From Gammaproteobacteria bacterium (GTDB lineage Bacteria > Pseudomonadota > Gammaproteobacteria > Pseudomonadales > Azotimanducaceae_A): a stretch of 13,453 nt of DNA. The stretch is from contig DUAT01000159.1 in the NCBI GenBank assembly GCA_012960755.1, positions 1 to 13,453 on the forward strand, written 5' to 3'. Numbering within the stretch: position 1 is the stretch's first letter; every line of letters starts with the position of its first letter. A model generated the notes under the pieces. That model made no database searches, had not been told where the DNA came from, and worked only from the letters and a program-made list of their open reading frames with translations. The translations under genes were made by a program, and so were the position numbers. Below, in pieces: positions 1,127-13,215 of the stretch.

Positions 1127-2401
1127 ATGGCAGGTGCATTGGAAGGCATACGAGTAGTAGAGATGGCACTGGCTATACAAGGACCGGCAGCTGGCTTGCA
1201 TTTTGCCAACATGGGTGCGGAAGTTATCAAGGTCGAACCACCATTTGGAGATGCAAGCCGGTACCATCGCGGCGCAAACAACACTTTGCCTAAAGAAGCT
1301 CTTGGATCACAGTTTCTTGCGTTGAACAAAGGCAAGCGATCTGTCTCATTAGACGCCCATACAGAGCTCGGGCAACGAGTGTTGCACGAGTTGTTGGAAA
1401 CTGCAGACGTATTTATCACCAACTATCGCAGTGATGCACTTGCACGTATGGGGCTTGACGTAAATGAGCTAGGCGAAAAGTATCCTAAACTTGTCGTCGG
1501 TAAGGTCAATGGATTCGGACCTTATGGTGAGGATGCACACAAGGCCATGTTGGATGGTGCAGCCCAGGCCCGTGGTGGCCTCATCAGTATGACGGGTTAC
1601 CCAGATGATGTTCCGATGGCACCTGGCATTATGTTGGCTGATCATGGTGGTGCCATGCAGTTGGCGCTAGCCTGCATGACCGCATTGGTTGCGCGTCATA
1701 CTACAGGTCGTGGACAGATGGTGTGCACATCTTCGCTTGGCACGATGTTGTGGATGCAGATGTGGGAATTGCAGCACTCGGCAATCACAGGCGTGCCATT
1801 GTCTCGCACCGGCCCGCACCATCCGAATCTTAAAGCTCCTTATGGTGTGTATGCGACCTCTGATGGAAGAGCAGTGATGTTCGTTAGCGCTAGAACAGAC
1901 GAGGCGTGGGCGGAGTTCTGGATATTTATGGATAAGCCGGAAGTCATTCTCATGGATGCTTGGGATACAGCTGGCAAACGTATCGGACTTGCTGGTTCTG
2001 ATGAGCAGCTACCGGAGATTCGACAGTTGATGCGAGAAGCTATTGGCTCGAAGACCCTTGAGGAAGTCGAAGCCTTTTTGCGAACTCAACCTGAGATCAT
2101 CTGGGAGCGAGTTAGAGGTCACGAAGAGGTGCTAAACGATCCTCAGAACCTTGCGAATGAATATATAACGGAAATAGATGTGCCTCTACTGGGCACAGTA
2201 AAGACTATTGGTCCCCTGGTACATCTCAGCGATACGCCAGCTCTAGGTCAGCGATTGCCGCCCGAATTGTCTGCAGACACCTCTACTGTTATGGATGAAC
2301 TTGGGTTCTCTGCTGAGGAGGCGAAGGAGGTCATCGATCACGCGCAAGCAGTTGGTGCAGAATTACTAGCTGCACTATGGGGAAAGGACGAGGAAGAGTG
2401 A
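1127..2401 (+). CDS. Class III (CaiB/BaiF-family) CoA-transferase
   Basis: This 424-residue cytoplasmic protein has the length and motifs of family III CoA-transferases, which move CoA between carboxylic acids through a glutamyl/aspartyl-CoA anhydride mechanism. Visible landmarks are the N-terminal LEGIRVVEMA, the Rossmann-like segment ANMGAEVIKVEPPFGD (28-42), LNKGKRSVSLD (66-76), and GIMLADHGG with the expected catalytic aspartate at D172. The start is firm: AAAGGAGGG precedes the ATG by about 6 nt. Operator site 1 and a hairpin lie just upstream. It is separated from the second CoA-transferase of the cluster (7204-8415) and differs clearly from it in sequence, so the two probably act on different acids or directions. 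The substrate cannot be assigned; the family call is secure. Confidence 0.93.
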   Translation: MAGALEGIRVVEMALAIQGPAAGLHFANMGAEVIKVEPPFGDASRYHRGANNTLPKEALGSQFLALNKGKRSVSLDAHTELGQRVLHELLETADVFITNYRSDALARMGLDVNELGEKYPKLVVGKVNGFGPYGEDAHKAMLDGAAQARGGLISMTGYPDDVPMAPGIMLADHGGAMQLALACMTALVARHTTGRGQMVCTSSLGTMLWMQMWELQHSAITGVPLSRTGPHHPNLKAPYGVYATSDGRAVMFVSARTDEAWAEFWIFMDKPEVILMDAWDTAGKRIGLAGSDEQLPEIRQLMREAIGSKTLEEVEAFLRTQPEIIWERVRGHEEVLNDPQNLANEYITEIDVPLLGTVKTIGPLVHLSDTPALGQRLPPELSADTSTVMDELGFSAEEAKEVIDHAQAVGAELLAALWGKDEEE

Positions 2402-2780
2402 TTACAAAAGTATAGTTCACGATGAGGCGAATACCAGGGCATGTAAGTTTTGATAAATATAGGCATTATGGATACAAGGGTTGCGGCACGGTGGAGTGTG
2501 GTCAACTTGTAGCTATTGTCAATTCGATCCGCGTCAATGGTTGACATGATTCTGCTGCAGTCGCCGGTGAATTGAGCGATATGGCGTTGAGCAAAAAACA
2601 CATCTTTACTCTGAAGAAGTAGTCCCCGTAAAGATGTTGATATATGTCGTGTGCTACGTGTCTATGTTCTATCTGCTCTGTCAGGTGTCACTTAAACAAC
2701 AGTCCAATTCTGTCGTCTGTTCGAGGATGCTCAAAGAAGCCTGGCTTCAAGGCATAAACAAAGTTATTAGGTCAACCGTA
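2402..2780. other. Intergenic region before the TetR gene
   Basis: No gene is supported here; open frames in it lack ribosome binding sites and family features. A small palindrome GTCAA-TGG-TTGAC lies at 2533-2545, with a further TGTCAA half-site at 2517-2522. No copy of the 23-bp operator seen at the other promoters was found, so autoregulation through that motif is not evident. No hairpin with a T-run marks the end of the preceding gene. Confidence 0.4.
2533..2545. promoter_or_regulatory. Small palindrome upstream of tetR
   Basis: GTCAA, three bases, TTGAC is a perfect 5-3-5 inverted repeat, with another TGTCAA 10 bases to its left. It could be a regulator site for the tetR gene. It is short enough to be chance, and no matching -10 box follows at a proper distance. 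Confidence 0.2.
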
Positions 2781-3380
2781 ATGGCAGCAAAGAAAAAACC
2801 AATCCAGCGTCGTTTGAAAGCAGATGAAAGACGATTAATCATCATGAGAGCAGCGATGCGGCTGTTTATTGATAAGGGTTATGCGGCGACTCGTATGGAG
2901 GAGATCGCTGAAGCAGCCGGGTGCACTACGGGCCCGCTCTATCACTTTTTCAAAACTAAGTACGACATTTTCGCAGCAGTAGCAGAGCAGACTTTTGAAC
3001 AGTTTGTAGGCAGGGCGAGAGCACATAGGGAGACCATCAATCAACAGTCTCCTTTGGCTCGCATGAAGGCAAGTATTGACAAGATCATGGATGAAGTAGA
3101 GTACACCACTGCCCAGATGTTTATACGTGAAACACCGATCGTGTTAGGCGAGCAACAATGGTCTGGCGTCATTGACGAGCTGATGACCAAGAGCTTTGAA
3201 AGCGATCTCAGAGACGCGATGATTGACAACCTGATAGAACCTGAGCCACCCCTGCCGGTGGCCGAATTCTTTAGTTCTGCAGTGGTAAATGCGATATCGC
3301 GTGCAGACCCGAAGAACAAGGAGTCTCTCAGGTTATCCAAGAATGCGATCCTGCGGATGGTAGACAGGCTCGAGGTATAA
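2781..3380 (+). CDS. TetR-family transcriptional regulator
   Basis: This 199-residue protein has an N-terminal TetR DNA-binding domain: helix 1 ADERRLIIMRAAMRLFIDKGY (14-34), then ATRMEEIAEAAGCTTGPLYHFFKTKYDIF (36-64) containing the helix-turn-helix and the typical LYxxFxxK end. The remainder is a helical ligand-binding domain without a recognisable subfamily motif. The ATG at 2781 is chosen because the basic leader MAAKKKPIQRR leads straight into the domain; the frame is open back to 2634, but that extension is hydrophobic, Cys-rich and unlike the family. The ribosome binding site is weak. The gene sits amid CoA-transferase, dehydrogenase and amidohydrolase genes and is the natural repressor for the three operator sites, probably relieved by a pathway acid or its CoA ester (inference). 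Confidence 0.92.
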   Translation: MAAKKKPIQRRLKADERRLIIMRAAMRLFIDKGYAATRMEEIAEAAGCTTGPLYHFFKTKYDIFAAVAEQTFEQFVGRARAHRETINQQSPLARMKASIDKIMDEVEYTTAQMFIRETPIVLGEQQWSGVIDELMTKSFESDLRDAMIDNLIEPEPPLPVAEFFSSAVVNAISRADPKNKESLRLSKNAILRMVDRLEV

Positions 3381-3417
3381 TTTGCTCCATGCGATGAAAC
3401 TCGCGCTCGACTTCGCG

Positions 3418-4281
3418 CTAGAGGTCAAGTTTCAGGACCTTCTTAGAGTTTTCCCTGAGAAACTTTGGCCAGACTTCTTTCTTGAATGGAACGTTTTCCA
3501 TCTCACCCATTATCCGTTCCATTGTCATACCCATCGGAAAGTAGCCGCCATAGATTACTTTGTCAGCACCCCTCGTGTTTGCATAATCAATAATGGCTTT
3601 CGGGTAGAATTTTGGAGCAAAAGCGGAGGTTGAGTAGTACAAATTCGGCCACTTCAACATGAGCTTTACTGCGAGATCTTCCCAGGGTTCGCAGCCATGG
3701 CGAGTGACAAGGACCAACTCGGGGAAGTCATACATAACCTGGTCTATCAGCTCAACTCGTTGAGGAGCCATTGGTAGTCGGGGACCGGGTACCCCGGCAC
3801 ACATAAAGATTGGCACATCAAGTTCGATGCACTTGGCGTAAATGGGATACATGAGCGGATCATTGATTGCTACTTGTGGCTTATATCCTGCGTTAAATGC
3901 GCTAAATGATCGTACGCCAAATTCTTCATACTGCCTAACCATGTTCCTGATACCGTCCATCCCGCGATTTGGATCCACTGTACCTTGTGCGATGAATCGA
4001 TCGGGATGCTGTTTCAGTGCTTCCCTGCTTATGTTGCCATCAAGTGTTATTACACCAAGTTCGATGCCGAAGCGATCCATCTCATTGAGAGTCACGGTCA
4101 CAGGGTCGCCGGTGCTGTAAAGATCCTTTGGTGACTTTTTGAACATGTAGTCCACTGGCGACTTAAGACCGTCCTTTGGCCCAGCACCGTCTGGCTTCGT
4201 ACTCAAACTCTTCGCCAACCGTTCGTAGATCTTGGGGTCGGGAAAACCAATCATGGTGTCAATAATACCTGTGCTATTCAT
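3418..4281 (-). CDS. Amidohydrolase-2-like (PF04909) protein lacking usual metal ligands
   Basis: This 287-residue protein has the fold signature of the amidohydrolase-2 family (TIM barrel; hydrolases and decarboxylases): YDFPELVLVTRHGCEPWEDLA (184-204) and LMLKWPNLYYSTSAFAPK (208-224). Two metal-binding landmarks are altered. The N-terminal HxH motif is replaced by IIDTMIGFPD, and the C-terminal GSDxP aspartate motif by YGGYFPMGMT (244-253). I recall similar proteins elsewhere with AGYFPMG, so this may be a coherent non-canonical subfamily, but that is from memory. The ATG at 4281 is chosen because GAGGA stands about 12 nt upstream; the frame extends six codons to a TTG at 4299 that overlaps this ribosome binding site. 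It converges on tetR with 37 nt between the stops. Operator site 3 overlaps its promoter. The reaction is unknown. Confidence 0.85.
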   Translation of the reverse strand: MNSTGIIDTMIGFPDPKIYERLAKSLSTKPDGAGPKDGLKSPVDYMFKKSPKDLYSTGDPVTVTLNEMDRFGIELGVITLDGNISREALKQHPDRFIAQGTVDPNRGMDGIRNMVRQYEEFGVRSFSAFNAGYKPQVAINDPLMYPIYAKCIELDVPIFMCAGVPGPRLPMAPQRVELIDQVMYDFPELVLVTRHGCEPWEDLAVKLMLKWPNLYYSTSAFAPKFYPKAIIDYANTRGADKVIYGGYFPMGMTMERIMGEMENVPFKKEVWPKFLRENSKKVLKLDL

Positions 4282-4314
4282 GCTTTCGTTTTTCCTCAAT
4301 TCTTACTGGCGAGA

Positions 4315-4337
4315 TCAATATAACATATCTACAATAA
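4315..4337. promoter_or_regulatory. Operator site 3 at the minus-strand amidohydrolase promoter
   Basis: TCAATATA, seven bases, TACAATAA. It has the same 8-7-8 layout as site 2, matching its left half at 6 of 8 positions and its right half at 7 of 8. Read on the minus strand, a candidate -10 box TATATT (complement of 4317-4322, 5 of 6 to consensus) lies inside it, about 34 nt ahead of the start codon. It is the weakest of the three sites and was found by looking for the layout. Confidence 0.4.
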
Positions 4338-4541
4338 ATTGAAGATTACACAGCTATTCTATATGCTGGCCGTGATCTCTTAAACCGTTCCGCTAGTAAC
4401 TGGTTAAGCTGAGGTTCAACGTCATAATCTAATAAGATATTGAATAATATAAAATATATTACAGAAAAAGAATTTGATTGCATGCTGGTCGCTAGCCAGA
4501 TCGGGTGTCCCGGAACGTTGTACACGATTTCACTTTCAATA

Positions 4542-4564
4542 TTAATGTAGACGTAATACATTAA
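4542..4564. promoter_or_regulatory. Operator site 2 at the dehydrogenase operon promoter
   Basis: TTAATGTA, seven bases, TACATTAA: a perfect 8-bp inverted repeat. A candidate promoter TAGACG (4548-4553), 17 bases, TACTAT (4571-4576), each 4 of 6 to consensus, has its -35 box inside the palindrome. This arrangement fits a repressor site for the three-gene operon downstream. The cluster's TetR protein is the likely ligand by context. Confidence 0.6.
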
Positions 4565-4693
4565 ACTGCATACTATCCCTCTGCATGAGCTGAACGATGA
4601 AGTCAGCCATCCATGAACGTAAATCACAAACAAAGAGGGAAGGGCGATGCAATCGAAAGTCAGACGCGGGTTCTTTGTACTAGGGTGGTTAGA

Positions 4694-5926
4694 GTGACAG
4701 ATGATTTAGAAGTCTTCCGGGCTGAGACACGGCTTTGGCTTGAGGAAAACTATCCAGACGGTCTCGGATCGAACGATTATTCGGGGCCAGAGGACGAACA
4801 AGATATCTGGGGTGGGAAGAAGTGCCGCTGGGTAAATCCTGAGAGAAAGGATTGGCTTGACAGGATGGCTGGCCGTGGTTGGACTGCTCCAACTTGGCCG
4901 ACGAAATATGGAGGTGGTGGTTTATCGTCATCACAAGCAAAGGTTCTCGCAGCGGAGCTGGCGCGCCTAAATTGCAAGCCGCCGTTGTTTTCGTTGGGGA
5001 TATCCATGCTGGGTCCTGCCCTGTTGGAGTTCGGAACCGAAGAGCAAAAGGCGCAACATCTGCCACCAATTGTGCGAGGTGAGATCCGCTGGTGCCAGGG
5101 CTACAGTGAGCCTGGAGCAGGGTCAGATCTCGCAAGTCTTCAATGTAAAGCTGTTAGGGATGGAGATGACTTTGTCGTAACAGGTCGAAAAGTTTGGACG
5201 TCGGGAGCAGACAAGTCAGACTGGATATTTTGTTTGGTGCGAACCGATCCCACCGTCTCCAAGCATGAAGGTATCAGTTTTCTTCTCATCGATATGGAGT
5301 CCCCTGGAGTTTCCGCATCACCAATCAGATTGATATCGGGTGACTCGCCTTTTTGTGAGACACTTTTTGATGAGGTTCGTGTTCCGGTTAGTAATATGGT
5401 GGGGCAACTCAACAAAGGCTGGGATGTGGCGAAACGTGTGCTGCAGTTTGAGCGTGTAATGGTGTCTGGCATGGGGCAGGGCAATGAAGCAGGTGATAAG
5501 CCAAGTCTCAGTAATGCTCGTCCCCGTTCCCTTCGTTCCCTCTATAGATCTACTACTGAAGATGCGTTAAGGGATCATGAGCATGCTCTGGCAGATGAAG
5601 TTGCTCGTGCAGAAATGAATCTCAGAGCATTTCGACTAACAATGAGAAGAGTGAGCGAAGAATCGAAATCTGGCAAAAGTATCGGACAGGAAGTTGCCAT
5701 GCTCAAGCTAGTTAGCAGTGAATTGAGTAAGGAACGTTCAGAGTTGAAGGTTCGAATTCTTGGTACCCAGGGATTGGGCTGGGAAGGTGAACAGTTCGAT
5801 GAGCAAGAGCTGATGGTCACCCGGGATTGGCTGCATAGTCTGGCTGGCACAATCGCGGGTGGTTCATCCGAAATACAGAAAAACATTATCGCCAAGCGGA
5901 TTCTGGGCTTACCCGATTCTGACTAG
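4694..5926 (+). CDS. Acyl-CoA dehydrogenase (FadE-like)
   Basis: This FAD-dependent acyl-CoA dehydrogenase has 410 residues from the GTG at 4694. In that numbering the FAD/substrate segment CQGYSEPGAGSDLAS spans 134-148, the middle-domain FVVTGRKVWTSGADKSDWIF spans 160-179, and the C-terminal IAGGSSEIQKNIIAKRILGLP is intact. The YEGT glutamate used as catalytic base in medium-chain enzymes is replaced by IAGG. A glutamate in LQFERVM (E253) stands where isovaleryl-CoA dehydrogenase has its base in LERL, so it is the likely base. The GTG start is preferred because AGGG stands 8 nt upstream and VTDDLEVFRAETRLWL is a normal beginning; the frame also opens at an ATG at 4613 with no ribosome binding site. 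It is the first gene of an operon. It probably introduces a 2,3-double bond into the CoA-activated substrate, which is unknown. Confidence 0.9.
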   Translation: MTDDLEVFRAETRLWLEENYPDGLGSNDYSGPEDEQDIWGGKKCRWVNPERKDWLDRMAGRGWTAPTWPTKYGGGGLSSSQAKVLAAELARLNCKPPLFSLGISMLGPALLEFGTEEQKAQHLPPIVRGEIRWCQGYSEPGAGSDLASLQCKAVRDGDDFVVTGRKVWTSGADKSDWIFCLVRTDPTVSKHEGISFLLIDMESPGVSASPIRLISGDSPFCETLFDEVRVPVSNMVGQLNKGWDVAKRVLQFERVMVSGMGQGNEAGDKPSLSNARPRSLRSLYRSTTEDALRDHEHALADEVARAEMNLRAFRLTMRRVSEESKSGKSIGQEVAMLKLVSSELSKERSELKVRILGTQGLGWEGEQFDEQELMVTRDWLHSLAGTIAGGSSEIQKNIIAKRILGLPDSD

Positions 5927-5970
5927 GCACACAGAAAGCTTGATAAATAAAAGTAACACAGGAGACCGTT

Positions 5971-7173
5971 ATGACGAACTTCCACATTTTTGATGCTGAC
6001 AATCATTACTATGAAACTCAGGATGCGTTTACAAGATACTTGCCCAAACATCTCGCGGGCCTGTTCAAGTTTGTCCAGGTAGATGGCCGGACCAAACTGG
6101 CCATTAATAATCACATCTCTGAATACATCCCTAATCCGACATTTGAGGTCGTTGCTCCACCGGGGTTATATGAAATCAAGTATCGACTTGAAAACCCCAA
6201 CTCCACCATGTCGCCCGATGAAGCGAAAAATTTGGAGATGCCTCCCAAGTACATGAAGTCCATACCAGCTTTTTTTGAGCCTGGACCTAGAATCGAATTG
6301 ATGAACGAACTTGGAGTTGATCGAACGATTATTTGGCCCACCTTGGCGACTTTACTGGAAGAGCGGCTTGCAGACGATCCAATTGCAACGCACGAAGCGG
6401 CGCATGCGTTCAATGAGTGGCTGCTGGATCAGTGGTCGTATGTATACCAAGATCGTATCTTCTCGACTCCAATTATTGCTCTCAATATTGTTGACCGCGC
6501 AATTGAAGAACTGGAGTGGGTTCTTAAGAAAGGCGCGAAGGTGATTCTAGTTCGTCCGGCACCAGTACCTGACTTTAACGGTCGTAGGCGTTCGTTCGCA
6601 TTGCCTGAGTTTGATCCGTTTTGGGCAAGAGTGCAGGAAGCTGACGTATTAGTAGGCATGCATGAAGGCGACAATGGTTTCCATAATTATCTGAACAACT
6701 ACGAAGGACATACCAGGGAGTTCCTTCCCTTCAATACCAGAATCTCAGCATTTACCAAGCTGATCAACGCTGAATCCCGACCAATCAGCGATGTAATTGC
6801 ATCGATTGTCGGTCATGGATTAGTTACCAGATTCCCACGCCTGAAGTTTCTGCCGGTTGAGAATGGATCATCGTGGGTAAGACCGCTGCTGGACAAGTTC
6901 AAGCGCTGTTATGGGCGTTCACCCAGCTACTTCGTCGAAGATCCGGTTGAAGCCTTTAACAGGTGTATCTGGATTCATCCTTTTCACGAGGAAGATACAG
7001 TCGGTTTGGCCAAGGAACTTGGCGCTGATCGAATCACTTTTGGCTCTGACTATCCACATCCTGAGGGGTTGGATAAGCCCAAAGAGTTCGTGAAAGAGCT
7101 GAAAGGATTGAATGAAGACGAACAGCGAATGATCATGGGTGGCAATCTGTCCGCTCTGATGGACGCAGCTTAA
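5971..7173 (+). CDS. Amidohydrolase-2 family (PF04909) metal-dependent hydrolase/decarboxylase
   Basis: This 400-residue protein of the amidohydrolase-2 family has most of the metal site. The N-terminal IFDADNHYYE (6-15) supplies D8/D10/H12 in place of the classic HxH. VLVGMHEGDNG puts a histidine at 231, VTRFPRLKFLPVENGSSW ends in the family's strand-7 segment, and ITFGSDYPHPEG gives D360 of the GSDxP motif. Members include hydrolases and non-oxidative decarboxylases, so the reaction cannot be fixed. AGGAGA 6 nt before the ATG settles the start. It lies 44 nt after the dehydrogenase and 30 nt before the CoA-transferase, so the three are very likely cotranscribed. Unlike the smaller relative at 3418-4281 it looks catalytically competent. 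Confidence 0.9.
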   Translation: MTNFHIFDADNHYYETQDAFTRYLPKHLAGLFKFVQVDGRTKLAINNHISEYIPNPTFEVVAPPGLYEIKYRLENPNSTMSPDEAKNLEMPPKYMKSIPAFFEPGPRIELMNELGVDRTIIWPTLATLLEERLADDPIATHEAAHAFNEWLLDQWSYVYQDRIFSTPIIALNIVDRAIEELEWVLKKGAKVILVRPAPVPDFNGRRRSFALPEFDPFWARVQEADVLVGMHEGDNGFHNYLNNYEGHTREFLPFNTRISAFTKLINAESRPISDVIASIVGHGLVTRFPRLKFLPVENGSSWVRPLLDKFKRCYGRSPSYFVEDPVEAFNRCIWIHPFHEEDTVGLAKELGADRITFGSDYPHPEGLDKPKEFVKELKGLNEDEQRMIMGGNLSALMDAA

Positions 7174-7203
7174 CTTGACCCAAGGCGACGCACTGGTATT
7201 GAC

Positions 7204-8415
7204 ATGGAAAATGAGATTGCTGGGCCACTAAGTGGCATTACCGTCATTGATTGCACAATGGTTCTGTCCGGACCATTCGCAACGATGATTTTGGCTGATT
7301 TGGGCGCTAACGTAATCAAGGTTGAGCCGCCCTATGGTGATGGCGCTAGAAGAGTAGCCCCCGTTCCCCCTGACTATGTCAGTGTTGCCAAAGGTGCTTC
7401 TGAGTCGTGTGATTACGGTGCCTACTTCGGCAGCGTTAACCGAAACAAAAGAAGTATCGTGCTCGACCTCAAACAGGCGGAAGACCGCGAAGTTTTTCTC
7501 AAGTTGTGTGATACGGCCGATGCGGTCACTGAAAACCTTCGCTCGGGTGTTATGGACGACCTGGGAATAGGTTACGAGGTTATCAAGGCACGTAATCCAC
7601 GAATTGTCTATGGATGCATTAGAGGCTTCGGTGATCCCCGAACTGGAGAAAGCCCTTATAGGGATTGGCCTTCCTACGATGTAATTGCTCAAGCCATGGC
7701 AGGGCATGTGCACATAACAGGTCCGCGAACCAGCAAGGGGTATCCCGCCGGTGCTGCGATTGGTGATGTGTACCCAGGTACACTTCTGGCAACTGGAATG
7801 ATCGCTGCACTGTTTCATGCGCAGAAGACGGGAGAGGGTCAGTTCGTGGATGTGGCAATGTATGATGCGATGTTGGCCTTAGCCCATGATGTCGTCTCCC
7901 TTTATGGTTTCGGCCGGCTGGAAATGGAGCGGCGTGACCTGCACCATCCAGCGTCTACGCCCTTTGGGATCTATGAAGCATCAGACGGATCGGTTGCGAT
8001 AGCAGCTCCTGACGACAAGCACTGGGCAATATTGTGCGAGGTCATGGAGAGGCCCGATCTACTCAGTGACAGCCGGATGAAAAACAAGTTTAGTCGAGGA
8101 AAAAATCACGAATATCTTGAAGAAGAAATCTCAAAGTGGACGCGTAGCTTGACGAAAAGTGAGGTGATGTCGGCTTTAGGTGGGAAGGTCCCGTGTGGGC
8201 CGGTGAATACTGGAGCTGATATTTTTTCTGATCCACATGTTTACGCCAGAGATATGATTGTAGAATTCACCCCGCAGGGAGATAACCCGCCAGTCTCAAT
8301 TGTCGGTTGCCCGATCAAGTTCAATAAGACGCCATCAGGTGTCTACTCCAGACCCCCCAAACTAGGTGAGCATACGGAAGAAATACTTTCAGAGTTGGGC
8401 TTACTCGATAACTGA
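7204..8415 (+). CDS. Class III (CaiB/BaiF-family) CoA-transferase, second copy
   Basis: This 403-residue family III CoA-transferase carries LSGITVIDCTMVLSGPFA, the conserved LADLGANVIKVEPPYGDGAR (30-49), VNRNKRSIVLDLK (78-90), TENLRSGVMDDLGIGYE and GAAIGDVYPG, with the expected catalytic aspartate at D188. The C-terminal part VPCGPVNTGADIFSDPHVYARDM is typical of the family, which suggests a conventional formyl-CoA/succinyl-CoA transferase-type enzyme more than the divergent copy at 1127-2401 does. It is the last gene of the operon that starts at 4694, 30 nt after its neighbour. No strong ribosome binding site precedes the ATG (AAGG is about 18 nt away), so translation may be coupled. Likely job: activate or deactivate a pathway acid by CoA exchange. 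Confidence 0.93.
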   Translation: MENEIAGPLSGITVIDCTMVLSGPFATMILADLGANVIKVEPPYGDGARRVAPVPPDYVSVAKGASESCDYGAYFGSVNRNKRSIVLDLKQAEDREVFLKLCDTADAVTENLRSGVMDDLGIGYEVIKARNPRIVYGCIRGFGDPRTGESPYRDWPSYDVIAQAMAGHVHITGPRTSKGYPAGAAIGDVYPGTLLATGMIAALFHAQKTGEGQFVDVAMYDAMLALAHDVVSLYGFGRLEMERRDLHHPASTPFGIYEASDGSVAIAAPDDKHWAILCEVMERPDLLSDSRMKNKFSRGKNHEYLEEEISKWTRSLTKSEVMSALGGKVPCGPVNTGADIFSDPHVYARDMIVEFTPQGDNPPVSIVGCPIKFNKTPSGVYSRPPKLGEHTEEILSELGLLDN

Positions 8416-9682: not shown

Positions 9683-9719
9683 AGACTAAAGTTCAGACTA
9701 GTTCAGACTAAAGTTCAGA
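9683..9719. repeat. Short tandem repeat (12-10-12 bp units)
   Basis: Three head-to-tail units, AGACTAAAGTTC, AGACTAGTTC and AGACTAAAGTTC, are followed by AGA. The middle unit has lost two bases. The array directly abuts the 74-bp palindrome on its right, so it may be part of the same element or a trace of slippage at its insertion point. Confidence 0.7.
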
Positions 9720-9793
9720 ATACATGGGGTAGGGGTAAAGTGCCGGGCTAAAAGACTGTGATTTACTCCGGCACTTACCCCGACCCCATGTAT
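9720..9793. repeat. REP/MITE-like long palindrome
   Basis: Two arms of about 32 bases (9720-9752 and 9762-9793) are inverted copies around a 9-nt loop. They share ATACATGGGGT, GGGGTAA, GTGCCGG and TAAA, with one mismatch and one extra base in the outer 27 positions and a 2-base mismatch near the loop. The outer ATACATGGGGT plus GGGGTAAGTGCCGG wording is like palindromes scattered in gammaproteobacterial genomes and mobilised by Y1 (REP-associated) transposases; that link is from memory. It encodes no protein. It sits between divergent genes and could fold as DNA or RNA into a very stable hairpin. Confidence 0.7.
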
Positions 9794-9904
9794 CCTTAAA
9801 ATTTCAATGACAGACTGAACGTCGTTCGGTACCAGAACTGATAGGCACCATTTCGGATCCTGATGCGTATAATGCCCCCAGGACCTGATCTTAGTGGATT
9901 GTTC

Positions 9905-12111: not shown

Positions 12112-13215
12112 ATGCATTCACCAGAAGATTTACCTGTACACCTGGCACCAGCCGTTCAGTCCGCCCTGTCCTGGGTTAATACTACCCGAGGCACAAACTA
12201 CAACTTAACCGGACTGGTGGATGTCGATGACATAGAAAGTGTCACCGAGCCCTTCGAGCTTGGCCTGGTTCTGTGTGATGGCGATATATGCGCGCGTGAA
12301 CAGGTCCGCGTCGTACCTAGGGGCGAAGCCTACCACTTCGATTTTGTCGCGGAAGCTGCACCCGATATCCCGCCATTGCTTGATCCCCCTACAGGCGTCC
12401 GGAGTGAGTGGCTGGACAAACAGCTCGAAAAACACGATTTCGTCGTGCTGCTCTATTATCGCGGACTCTGGTGACCCCCCTGCCGCTTCGAGTTACGAAG
12501 CTACGTCAAGTCCGGTGTGCTGGATCAGATTCATGCGGCAGGTGGGGAGGTGTTTGGCATCACAAGCGAACCGCAAACCCTGGCCACCGAGGCAGAAGTG
12601 GAATGGGGAACGCAGTTCCCGGTGATCGGGGACCCGCACCACGAAATCCGCAAAGTATGTAAAGACAGAGGATATCTGGCGGTCTTTTATAACGAAGACG
12701 ACGGTCACCTGCGAGAGCGCAGTTGGGCGTCCCATCCCAAAGGTTATTACCAACCAGCGGTGCTGGCGGTACATAAATCAGGGCGCGTTTTGTACCGCTG
12801 GCGCTGTGTGCCAAGGTTCAGCAACATGAGCGGTGCAGGTGGTCGACCCGAAGCGGATTATACGTGGGACAAGATTCAGTTGGCACTAGATACCACTGAA
12901 GATTCAGCACCTGACCTGACACCTGAGATGGGGTCTGAGACAGTGTCCTGGCCGAAGTTTCTGCTGATATTGACAGCGCACGGTTGGTTCCTTCGACCCA
13001 GAGCATTTCCGCTGGCCCGCGAGGGGGATAAGGCACTGGTGAGTCCGGCAAAGATGATGAAGCGGGTATACGGGTTTGTGGTGTTCTGGGTGATACTGCT
13101 GCTTGTTCTGCCATTAGCCTGGGTCGGTCTTGCCGCATTGGTTTGGCTGGCGGTGCTGACCCCTGGTTTGATTGAGATTCATCGTCAGTTCCAGAATGAA
13201 CCGGATCCATTTTGA
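12112..13215 (+). CDS. Peroxiredoxin-like selenoprotein (in-frame TGA at 12472-12474 read as Sec121)
   Basis: The frame from the ATG at 12112 meets TGA at codon 121 and continues open to TGA at 13215, giving 367 residues with Sec. Around the TGA the text is VVLLYYRGLW-U-PPCRFEL, the AhpC/TSA-like (Prx-like) active site normally written YRGxWCPxC; here the first cysteine is Sec and C124 is the partner. Downstream GEVFGITSEP, FPVIGDPHHEIRKVC, YYQPAVLAVHKSGRVLYRW and a GAGGRPEAD segment are normal thioredoxin-fold peroxiredoxin features. A SECIS-like hairpin follows at once. Residues 1-100 form an N-terminal domain I do not recognise, with CDGDIC at 55-60. Residues 321-351 form one or two membrane segments. 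Probable role: membrane-bound thiol peroxidase or disulfide oxidoreductase. Standard calling would split it into 120- and 232-residue genes. The start has only a weak GGAA 12 nt upstream. A nonsense mutation is the alternative, but it would have to fall exactly on the redox cysteine. Confidence 0.85.
12472..12501 (+). promoter_or_regulatory. UGA codon plus bacterial SECIS-like hairpin
   Basis: After the TGA (12472-12474) ten bases lead to a perfect 6-bp stem GCTTCG (12485-12490), loop AGTTA (12491-12495), CGAAGC (12496-12501). The loop begins 16 nt after the TGA and has G at its second position. Both features meet the published bacterial SECIS pattern: loop 16-37 nt after UGA, and a G in the first two loop bases. 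SelB bound to this loop would deliver Sec-tRNA. The hairpin lies within coding sequence, as expected in bacteria. Confidence 0.75.

Follow-up and report, generated by a model that had tools for sequence, protein, structure and literature searches.

An in-frame UGA in a redoxin-type gene of a gammaproteobacterium: evidence for a bacterial selenoprotein with a UxxC active site

Near the end of the stretch of DNA analysed here – the window, 13,453 nucleotides of a gammaproteobacterial contig (DUAT01000159.1) – a long reading frame is interrupted once, by a TGA at position 12472. Does this codon end a short gene, or is it read as selenocysteine (Sec, U) within a longer protein, and what would such a protein do? 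Our answer is that the internal TGA almost certainly encodes selenocysteine in one full-length protein, and we hold with high confidence that a bacterial selenoprotein gene is the best explanation of the locus as a whole.

The reading frame and its internal TGA

The frame is open from the ATG at 12112 to the TGA at 13213–13215, with the internal TGA as codon 121 and, as the original prediction had said, 246 sense codons beyond it. The same prediction held that ordinary gene calling would report two truncated genes, and a mechanical list of open reading frames under translation table 11 does split the frame into pieces of 120 amino acids (12112–12474) and 232 amino acids (12517–13215). The features of the gene itself are as follows:

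12112–13215, forward strand: whole selenoprotein gene, 367 codons including the TGA at 12472–12474 as Sec, followed by the stop codon; in alignments, relatives share roughly this start
12472–12474, forward strand: in-frame TGA, putative selenocysteine 121, from the reading of the frame and the alignment of relatives
12485–12501, forward strand: bacterial SECIS-type hairpin of 6 bp with the loop AGUUA (12491–12495) and loop G at 12492; pairing conserved, with covariation

Coding constraint is visible on both sides of the TGA when the window is compared by codon position with four relatives of the same length, over 115 codons before the TGA and 149 after it; against one of them (L001), differences at codon positions 1, 2 and 3 number 27, 18 and 71 before the TGA and 18, 19 and 73 after it. 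Public protein records give a more partial picture. A search of 5.8 billion proteins with the read-through protein produced 456 hits, and the 120 listed among them are 215–245 residues long and span at most 65% of the query; 25 of these listed hits, aligned in our alignment A1, all start after the TGA, without the active site, so that the listed public copies comprise no more than the C-terminal part.

Relatives were also sought at the level of DNA. Scanning the contigs of 84,980 species (genome_contigs) with alignment A1 gave 89 loci, the best 80 of which were kept; single-sequence scans of genome_contigs and viral_contigs found no match, nor did the A1 scan of viral_contigs, and neither plasmid records, phage records nor PHROGs gave a match. 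Among the best 80 of the 89 loci, codon 121 is TGA in 76, TGT in three (L048, L077, L079) and TGC in one (L063). The TGA had been placed at an active-site Cys position, and it does align with Cys in relatives (YRGLW-U-PPC); the expectation of Cys at residue 121 in many relatives held in kind but not in number, Cys being found in few (4/80, against 76/80 with TGA). The 80 loci span records named Gammaproteobacteria, Myxococcota, Acidimicrobiia, Verrucomicrobia, Chloroflexi, Alphaproteobacteria and Saprospiraceae, among others – nearly all of them metagenome bins, some of whose names may be wrong.

Departures from this pattern are few. Further stops besides the TGA occur in L028 (two) and L057 (one), and L054 has Arg in place of Cys124; the interrupted L028 and the protein P0135, with a scrambled active-site region, are probably products of frameshifts from assembly or calling. 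Within the order of G031, a genome with a Cys form, the family was matched in 33 of 79 genomes, and 35 of the 36 full-length rows have one TGA (one of them also a TAG), counted per row with the TGA site read in part of the rows; the remaining row is the Cys form of G031 itself. A search of 198 genomes from the phylum of G048, another genome with a Cys form, found the family in G048 alone, and one of 199 genomes from its taxonomic family found the gene family in three. Some genomes have paralogues (three copies in G467; two, L116 and L120, in G001), each with one TGA. Comparison across relatives shows the UGA at codon 121 to be kept as a sense codon at a redox-active Cys position.

The hairpin after the UGA and the selenocysteine machinery

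A SECIS-like hairpin with suitable spacing and a loop G had also been predicted, and the window hairpin lies within the constraints published for such elements. The available text of PMC13188914 gives the bacterial SECIS (bSECIS) model as a stem of 4–16 bp and a loop of 3–9 nt with G in one of its first two positions, 16–37 nt from the UGA and with a minimum free energy of at most −7.5 kcal/mol. In the window, the hairpin starts 10 nt past the TGA and has 6 bp and a loop of 5 nt with G second (then U), a UGA-to-loop distance of 16 nt and, for the 42 nt after the TGA, −8.0 kcal/mol. An Rfam scan of the window found no match over a family cut-off, only four sub-threshold matches of miRNA type.

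All six pairs are present in 76 of the 77 TGA genes (the window and 76 loci), with the loop AGUU(A/G); the sole exception, L072, has a diverged hairpin with three of six pairs in this register. Re-encoding the same peptides with each gene's own codon usage would be expected to give only 4.5 complete hairpins in 77; the hairpin is therefore not there by chance. A covariation test used 28 selected rows, 27 of them distinct: pairing holds in 98.1% of cells and two of the six pairs change on both sides; such double-sided changes fill 24 cells against a shuffled mean of 7.6 (0/500 shuffles as high), the number of covarying pairs is not above shuffles (372/500 as high), and the relatedness of the rows inflates the other covariation measures. 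Codon choice within the hairpin points the same way: the loop Leu is TTA or TTG in 77/77 TGA genes, against a per-gene mean of 21%, and the hairpin Glu is GAG in 76/77, against 55%. This comparison shows the hairpin, which overrides codon choice, to be under selection. The hairpin seems to shape the protein sequence too, the residue after Glu–Leu being Arg (CGN) in 77/77 TGA genes; it is Leu in the Cys forms L063, L077, L079 and L089 and Arg in the Cys form L048.

The machinery for Sec insertion was searched for in 49 relatives' genomes, hand-picked for diversity, which between them contain 50 of the 80 loci; the TGA form is present in 45 of these genomes and the Cys form in four. Full-length SelA was found in 39 of the 45 TGA genomes (excluding a weak partial hit in G043), SelB over cut-off in 38, SelD in 38 and tRNA-Sec in 36, at a bar of at least 50 bits that was set above the Rfam cut-off of 47, the search giving matches in control genomes too. 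SelA, SelB or tRNA-Sec is present in 40 of the 45. The six TGA genomes in which full-length SelA was not found (G002, G006, G015, G032, G039, G043) are represented by metagenome bins or single cells whose completeness is unknown: G032 has tRNA-Sec and SelD, G002, G006 and G043 have SelD only, and none of SelA, SelB, tRNA-Sec and SelD was found in G015 and G039. Of the four genomes with Cys forms, G031 yielded SelA, tRNA-Sec and an incomplete SelD but no SelB over cut-off; in G041, G048 and G049 there was no match for SelA or SelD, no tRNA-Sec reached 50 bits and no SelB its cut-off. Against a background of SelA in 33 of 244 genomes in the order of G001, the gene occurs in four of the 244 and SelA in all four of these, which are few and related; the order of G031, where 75 of 79 genomes have SelA, gives no such contrast. 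The selD genes of G027, G028, G029, G030, G037 and G038 each have one in-frame TGA, consistent with a Sec-containing SelD, and the partial selD of G031 also has one.

These observations bear on two other ways of reading the codon. If the TGA were a true stop – a nonsense mutation, a pseudogene or a sequencing error – two fragments would be left, and all that speaks for this is that mechanical lists of reading frames and database proteins show the gene in such a way; yet the TGA stands at the same codon in 76 of 80 loci from several phyla, the frames are open on both sides of it in nearly all, the hairpin is conserved and codon-position bias continues across it. Conservation across loci already refutes this reading, to which we give practically no weight. 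Reassigned UGA codes exist in other lineages, and the codon might be read in that manner (e.g. as Trp or Gly), or passed by unspecific read-through, without Sec. That, however, is scarcely credible here: no evidence in its favour came to light, in nearly all 80 loci the frame contains a single TGA, always at the site aligned with Cys, Sec machinery is found in most genomes tested, the hairpin is conserved and the window gene itself ends in TGA. Sec insertion at UGA 121 is, in our judgement, close to certain. By analogy with established bacterial Sec insertion, SelB with GTP and Sec-tRNA(Sec) would bind the hairpin and insert Sec at the UGA, giving one protein of 367 residues.

Architecture and probable activity of the protein

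Alignment A2 comprises 28 rows, A3 52 and A4 50. The read-through protein can be divided into an N-terminal domain, a redoxin domain and a predicted membrane hairpin, described here from a structural model, hydropathy and alignment:

12112–12357, forward strand: N-terminal domain, about residues 1–82, predicted as a four-stranded sheet bearing a single helix; contains two invariant Cys (model, alignment)
12274–12276, forward strand: codon of Cys55, an invariant column in the 52 rows of A3 and 50 rows of A4
12289–12291, forward strand: codon of Cys60, an invariant column in the 52 rows of A3 and 50 rows of A4
12394–12900, forward strand: redoxin domain (AhpC/TSA-like, thioredoxin superfamily), residues 95–263
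12481–12483, forward strand: codon of Cys124, the second redox residue in UxxC, with conservation of 90% or more in A3
13045–13107, forward strand: predicted transmembrane helix 1, residues 312–332 (helix in the model, hydropathy)
13114–13188, forward strand: predicted transmembrane helix 2, residues 335–359 (helix in the model, hydropathy)

The N-terminal domain has a weak structural resemblance to the cystatin/monellin arrangement and no Pfam or PDB sequence match of note. For the redoxin domain, Pfam AhpC-TSA (PF00578) matches residues 104–181 with 31.5 bits against a cut-off of 26, the sole Pfam hit over its cut-off, and all 52 of 52 members match PF00578 at E ≤ 0.01. The part of the frame past the TGA had been called clear peroxiredoxin-like sequence throughout; this is right for the redoxin fold of residues 95–263 but not for the rest, which includes the predicted two-helix membrane hairpin. 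Anchoring in the membrane through this C-terminal hairpin is quite probable. Basic residues flank the hairpin on both sides and no N-terminal hydrophobic stretch was found by hydropathy, for which reasons the most likely placement of the redox domains is on the cytoplasmic side of the inner membrane; six truncated or frameshifted rows of 81 (L028, L029, L036, L037, L038, L073) were dropped from the hydropathy counts and from the tree discussed below.

A thiol/selenol redox enzyme is what we expect the protein to be, with considerable confidence. The choice between peroxidase and disulphide reductase is finer. The strict peroxiredoxin active-site motif is PxxxTxx(C/U). It is also given, as PxxxTxxU, in the available text of PMC13188914. 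In the window protein the motif is absent: residues 114–121 read LYYRGLWU, with an invariant Gly118 at the place of the Thr, and the site itself is WUPPC. The original prediction had put the TGA at the peroxidatic Cys, of which the active-site Cys position survives while the canonical peroxiredoxin surroundings do not. The missing motif disfavours a classical peroxiredoxin mechanism, and peroxiredoxins such as Bcp and AhpC further differ from this protein, which has Cys124 three residues after Sec and extra domains.

The same selenoprotein might instead be a membrane-tethered thiol:disulphide oxidoreductase of the ResA/TlpA type, whose Sec121–Cys124 pair would reduce or exchange disulphides. 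Thioredoxin-fold disulphide reductases have a WCxPC site, which WUPPC resembles; the peroxiredoxin Thr is missing; there is a weak match to NCBIfam ResA (NF002854; E 0.0015, 18.5 bits, short of the cut-off of 170); and the top PDB hits by sequence, though weak throughout, are to thioredoxin-like proteins, ResA 1st9 (E 0.12) among them. Set against this are AhpC-TSA as the only Pfam family over its cut-off and a structural model whose best matches are peroxiredoxins, with 1st9 only at rank 40 – although likeness of fold does not decide activity. ResA-type proteins, moreover, act outside the cytoplasm, whereas the window protein has no N-terminal hydrophobic stretch, and its N-terminal and membrane parts and its Sec also set it apart from them. 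We give the oxidoreductase a substantial chance that nevertheless stays short of even, and lean slightly towards a peroxidase.

For the preferred selenoenzyme, the following course may be envisaged. U121-P-P-C124 would form the redoxin active site, with Sec121 attacking a peroxide or an oxidised thiol. The substrate may well lie near the membrane, where a lipid hydroperoxide would be a sensible candidate given the position of the protein. The resulting Se–OH or mixed selenenyl sulphide would be resolved by Cys124, and either a thiol donor from outside or the Cys55/Cys60 pair might then reduce the selenenylsulphide; a relay through this pair is a guess that we consider rather unlikely.

Within 6 kb of the gene, no neighbour family recurs in over 14 of the 81 loci, counting the window, and hence no operon partner emerged. 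Relatives of the CoA-transferases are found at this distance from the selenoprotein gene in nine of the 81 loci, the window among them. The window itself has a catabolic-looking cluster at 1127–8415 (two type III CoA-transferases, an acyl-CoA dehydrogenase, two amidohydrolases and a TetR regulator) and a partial IS240-type DDE transposase at 234–646 (PF13610, 96 bits, profile positions 3–82 of 139). An intergenic inverted repeat at 9714–9799, with 25-nt arms that are 88% complementary, further inner arms and the sub-threshold miRNA matches, looks like a small non-autonomous mobile element or a REP-type hairpin.

Selenium and sulphur forms, and the place of the family

In the genomes examined, Sec forms outnumber Cys forms. 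The 76:4 ratio leans towards Sec, since similarity to a Sec query set the ranking of the loci, and a protein search with a Cys query points the same way. That search gave 328 hits; among the 120 listed, 13 are at least 387 residues long and the others at most 279. Eleven of the 12 long hits that were read have WCPPC, the twelfth being P0135, whose scrambled motif resembles a frameshift, so that 12 clusters among the 120 listed look like full-length Cys forms (11 read and one, P0128, inferred). A further Cys form, in G335 (L089/L090), is split over two frames.

The maximum-likelihood tree, built from 75 rows, requires the Cys label to change twice, once for L063, L077 and L079 together and once for L048 alone. 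The latter is sister to the Sec form L050 (support 100/95), stands in a genome with SelA and keeps five of six hairpin pairs (P 0.29, not significant alone); over the 30 bases after codon 121, a stem base and a silent base distinguish it from L050. With SelA in the genome and a hairpin short of one pair, the simple reading is that L048 arose by one Sec-to-Cys change. Such cases have precedents, a 2006 study having counted 15 Sec-to-Cys events, 11 of which left the Cys form in a Sec-using organism, some with remnant features (available text of PMC13188914 and PMC1794560).

For the other Cys group, the direction of change would depend on the root, and the data leave the tree unrooted: a protein search for an outgroup gave 200 hits, and the 120 listed among them look, by length and identity, like the same family. 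It is conceivable that the family started out with Cys and acquired Sec a single time, the Cys forms of Saprospiraceae and Verrucomicrobiota being ancestral and not a loss. A 100/100 branch, where the root could be placed, separates L063, L077 and L079 from the other rows, and these three, like L089, show no convincing relic of the hairpin (pairing P 0.086, 0.046 and 0.20 for L063, L077 and L079 respectively, and 0.52 for L089). Midpoint rooting, on the other hand, nests the three inside the Sec forms, if weakly, and L048, nested among Sec forms, speaks for one Sec-to-Cys change while being silent on the other group; we consider a Cys-based origin doubtful. A bolder proposal makes the family a near-obligate selenoprotein, a self-contained inner-membrane redox device in which a cystatin-like N-terminal Cys pair, at the tip of a β-hairpin, passes electrons to the UxxC redoxin site and whose Cys forms are losses, one of them in a host with Sec machinery; since discovery methods would have had few Cys homologues to start from, it would have been overlooked. 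Taken together, this strikes us as improbable.

By domain and motif, the window protein fits the known UxxC class of peroxiredoxin-like (Prx-like) selenoproteins, from whose published members it would be set apart by description only. The class was already treated as known in the 2005 Sargasso study (PMC1088965) and recurs, in the available texts, in the 2008 GOS study (PMC2398784) and in reviews of 2022 (PMC9312934) and 2026 (PMC13188914). As described there, the Sargasso and GOS proteins share with the window family an AhpC/TSA- or redoxin-type domain, UxxC, a bacterial SECIS and aquatic bacterial hosts; no three-part layout is described for them in these texts, a difference between descriptions, and their members may include the window family. 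The Sargasso class is also Sec-rich, like the window family, with 22 Sec and four Cys forms (PMC1088965); the GOS counts (PMC2398784) are 225 Sec and 2,740 Cys for Prx-like 1 (PF00578) and 68 and 2,608 for Prx-like 3 (PF08534). In the available text of PMC13188914, entries for a Prx-like thiol:disulphide oxidoreductase and a 'Redoxin family protein' have the same Pfam domain and a UxxC motif; compared by description, that text mentions neither an N-terminal Cys-pair domain nor a membrane hairpin, and the word 'transmembrane' is absent from it.

The window protein reaches no NCBIfam cut-off, and the 52 members together match two families, both weakly (best E 5.5e-6). One, the SelL-related NF040769, resembles the redoxin part and matches 32 of 52 members at E ≤ 0.01 (best E 5.5e-6), yet the window protein scores 11.7 bits against a cut-off of 120, over residues 105–178 only; SelL itself has UxxU. 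In the texts covered by a literature search, which left subscription papers, preprints and supplements outside and so does not show absence from print, the three-part architecture is not described, 'WUPPC' occurs only in an unrelated paper, and none of the nine new families of the deep-Sep study is named as a redoxin in the available text of PMC12013277.

For annotation, the consequence is that databases usually show this family cut short, the listed hits being short proteins. For biology, a family dominated by Sec lends itself to testing under what conditions Cys fails as a substitute, with its Cys relatives as ready-made comparisons. Such dominance is not unique to the window family: besides the Sargasso class, the available GOS text (PMC2398784) has SelW-like (427 Sec, 56 Cys), UGSC-containing (255, 21) and PrdB (235, 110) proteins, and the Sec-rich families already tabulated in print, one of them Prx-like, may include the window family.
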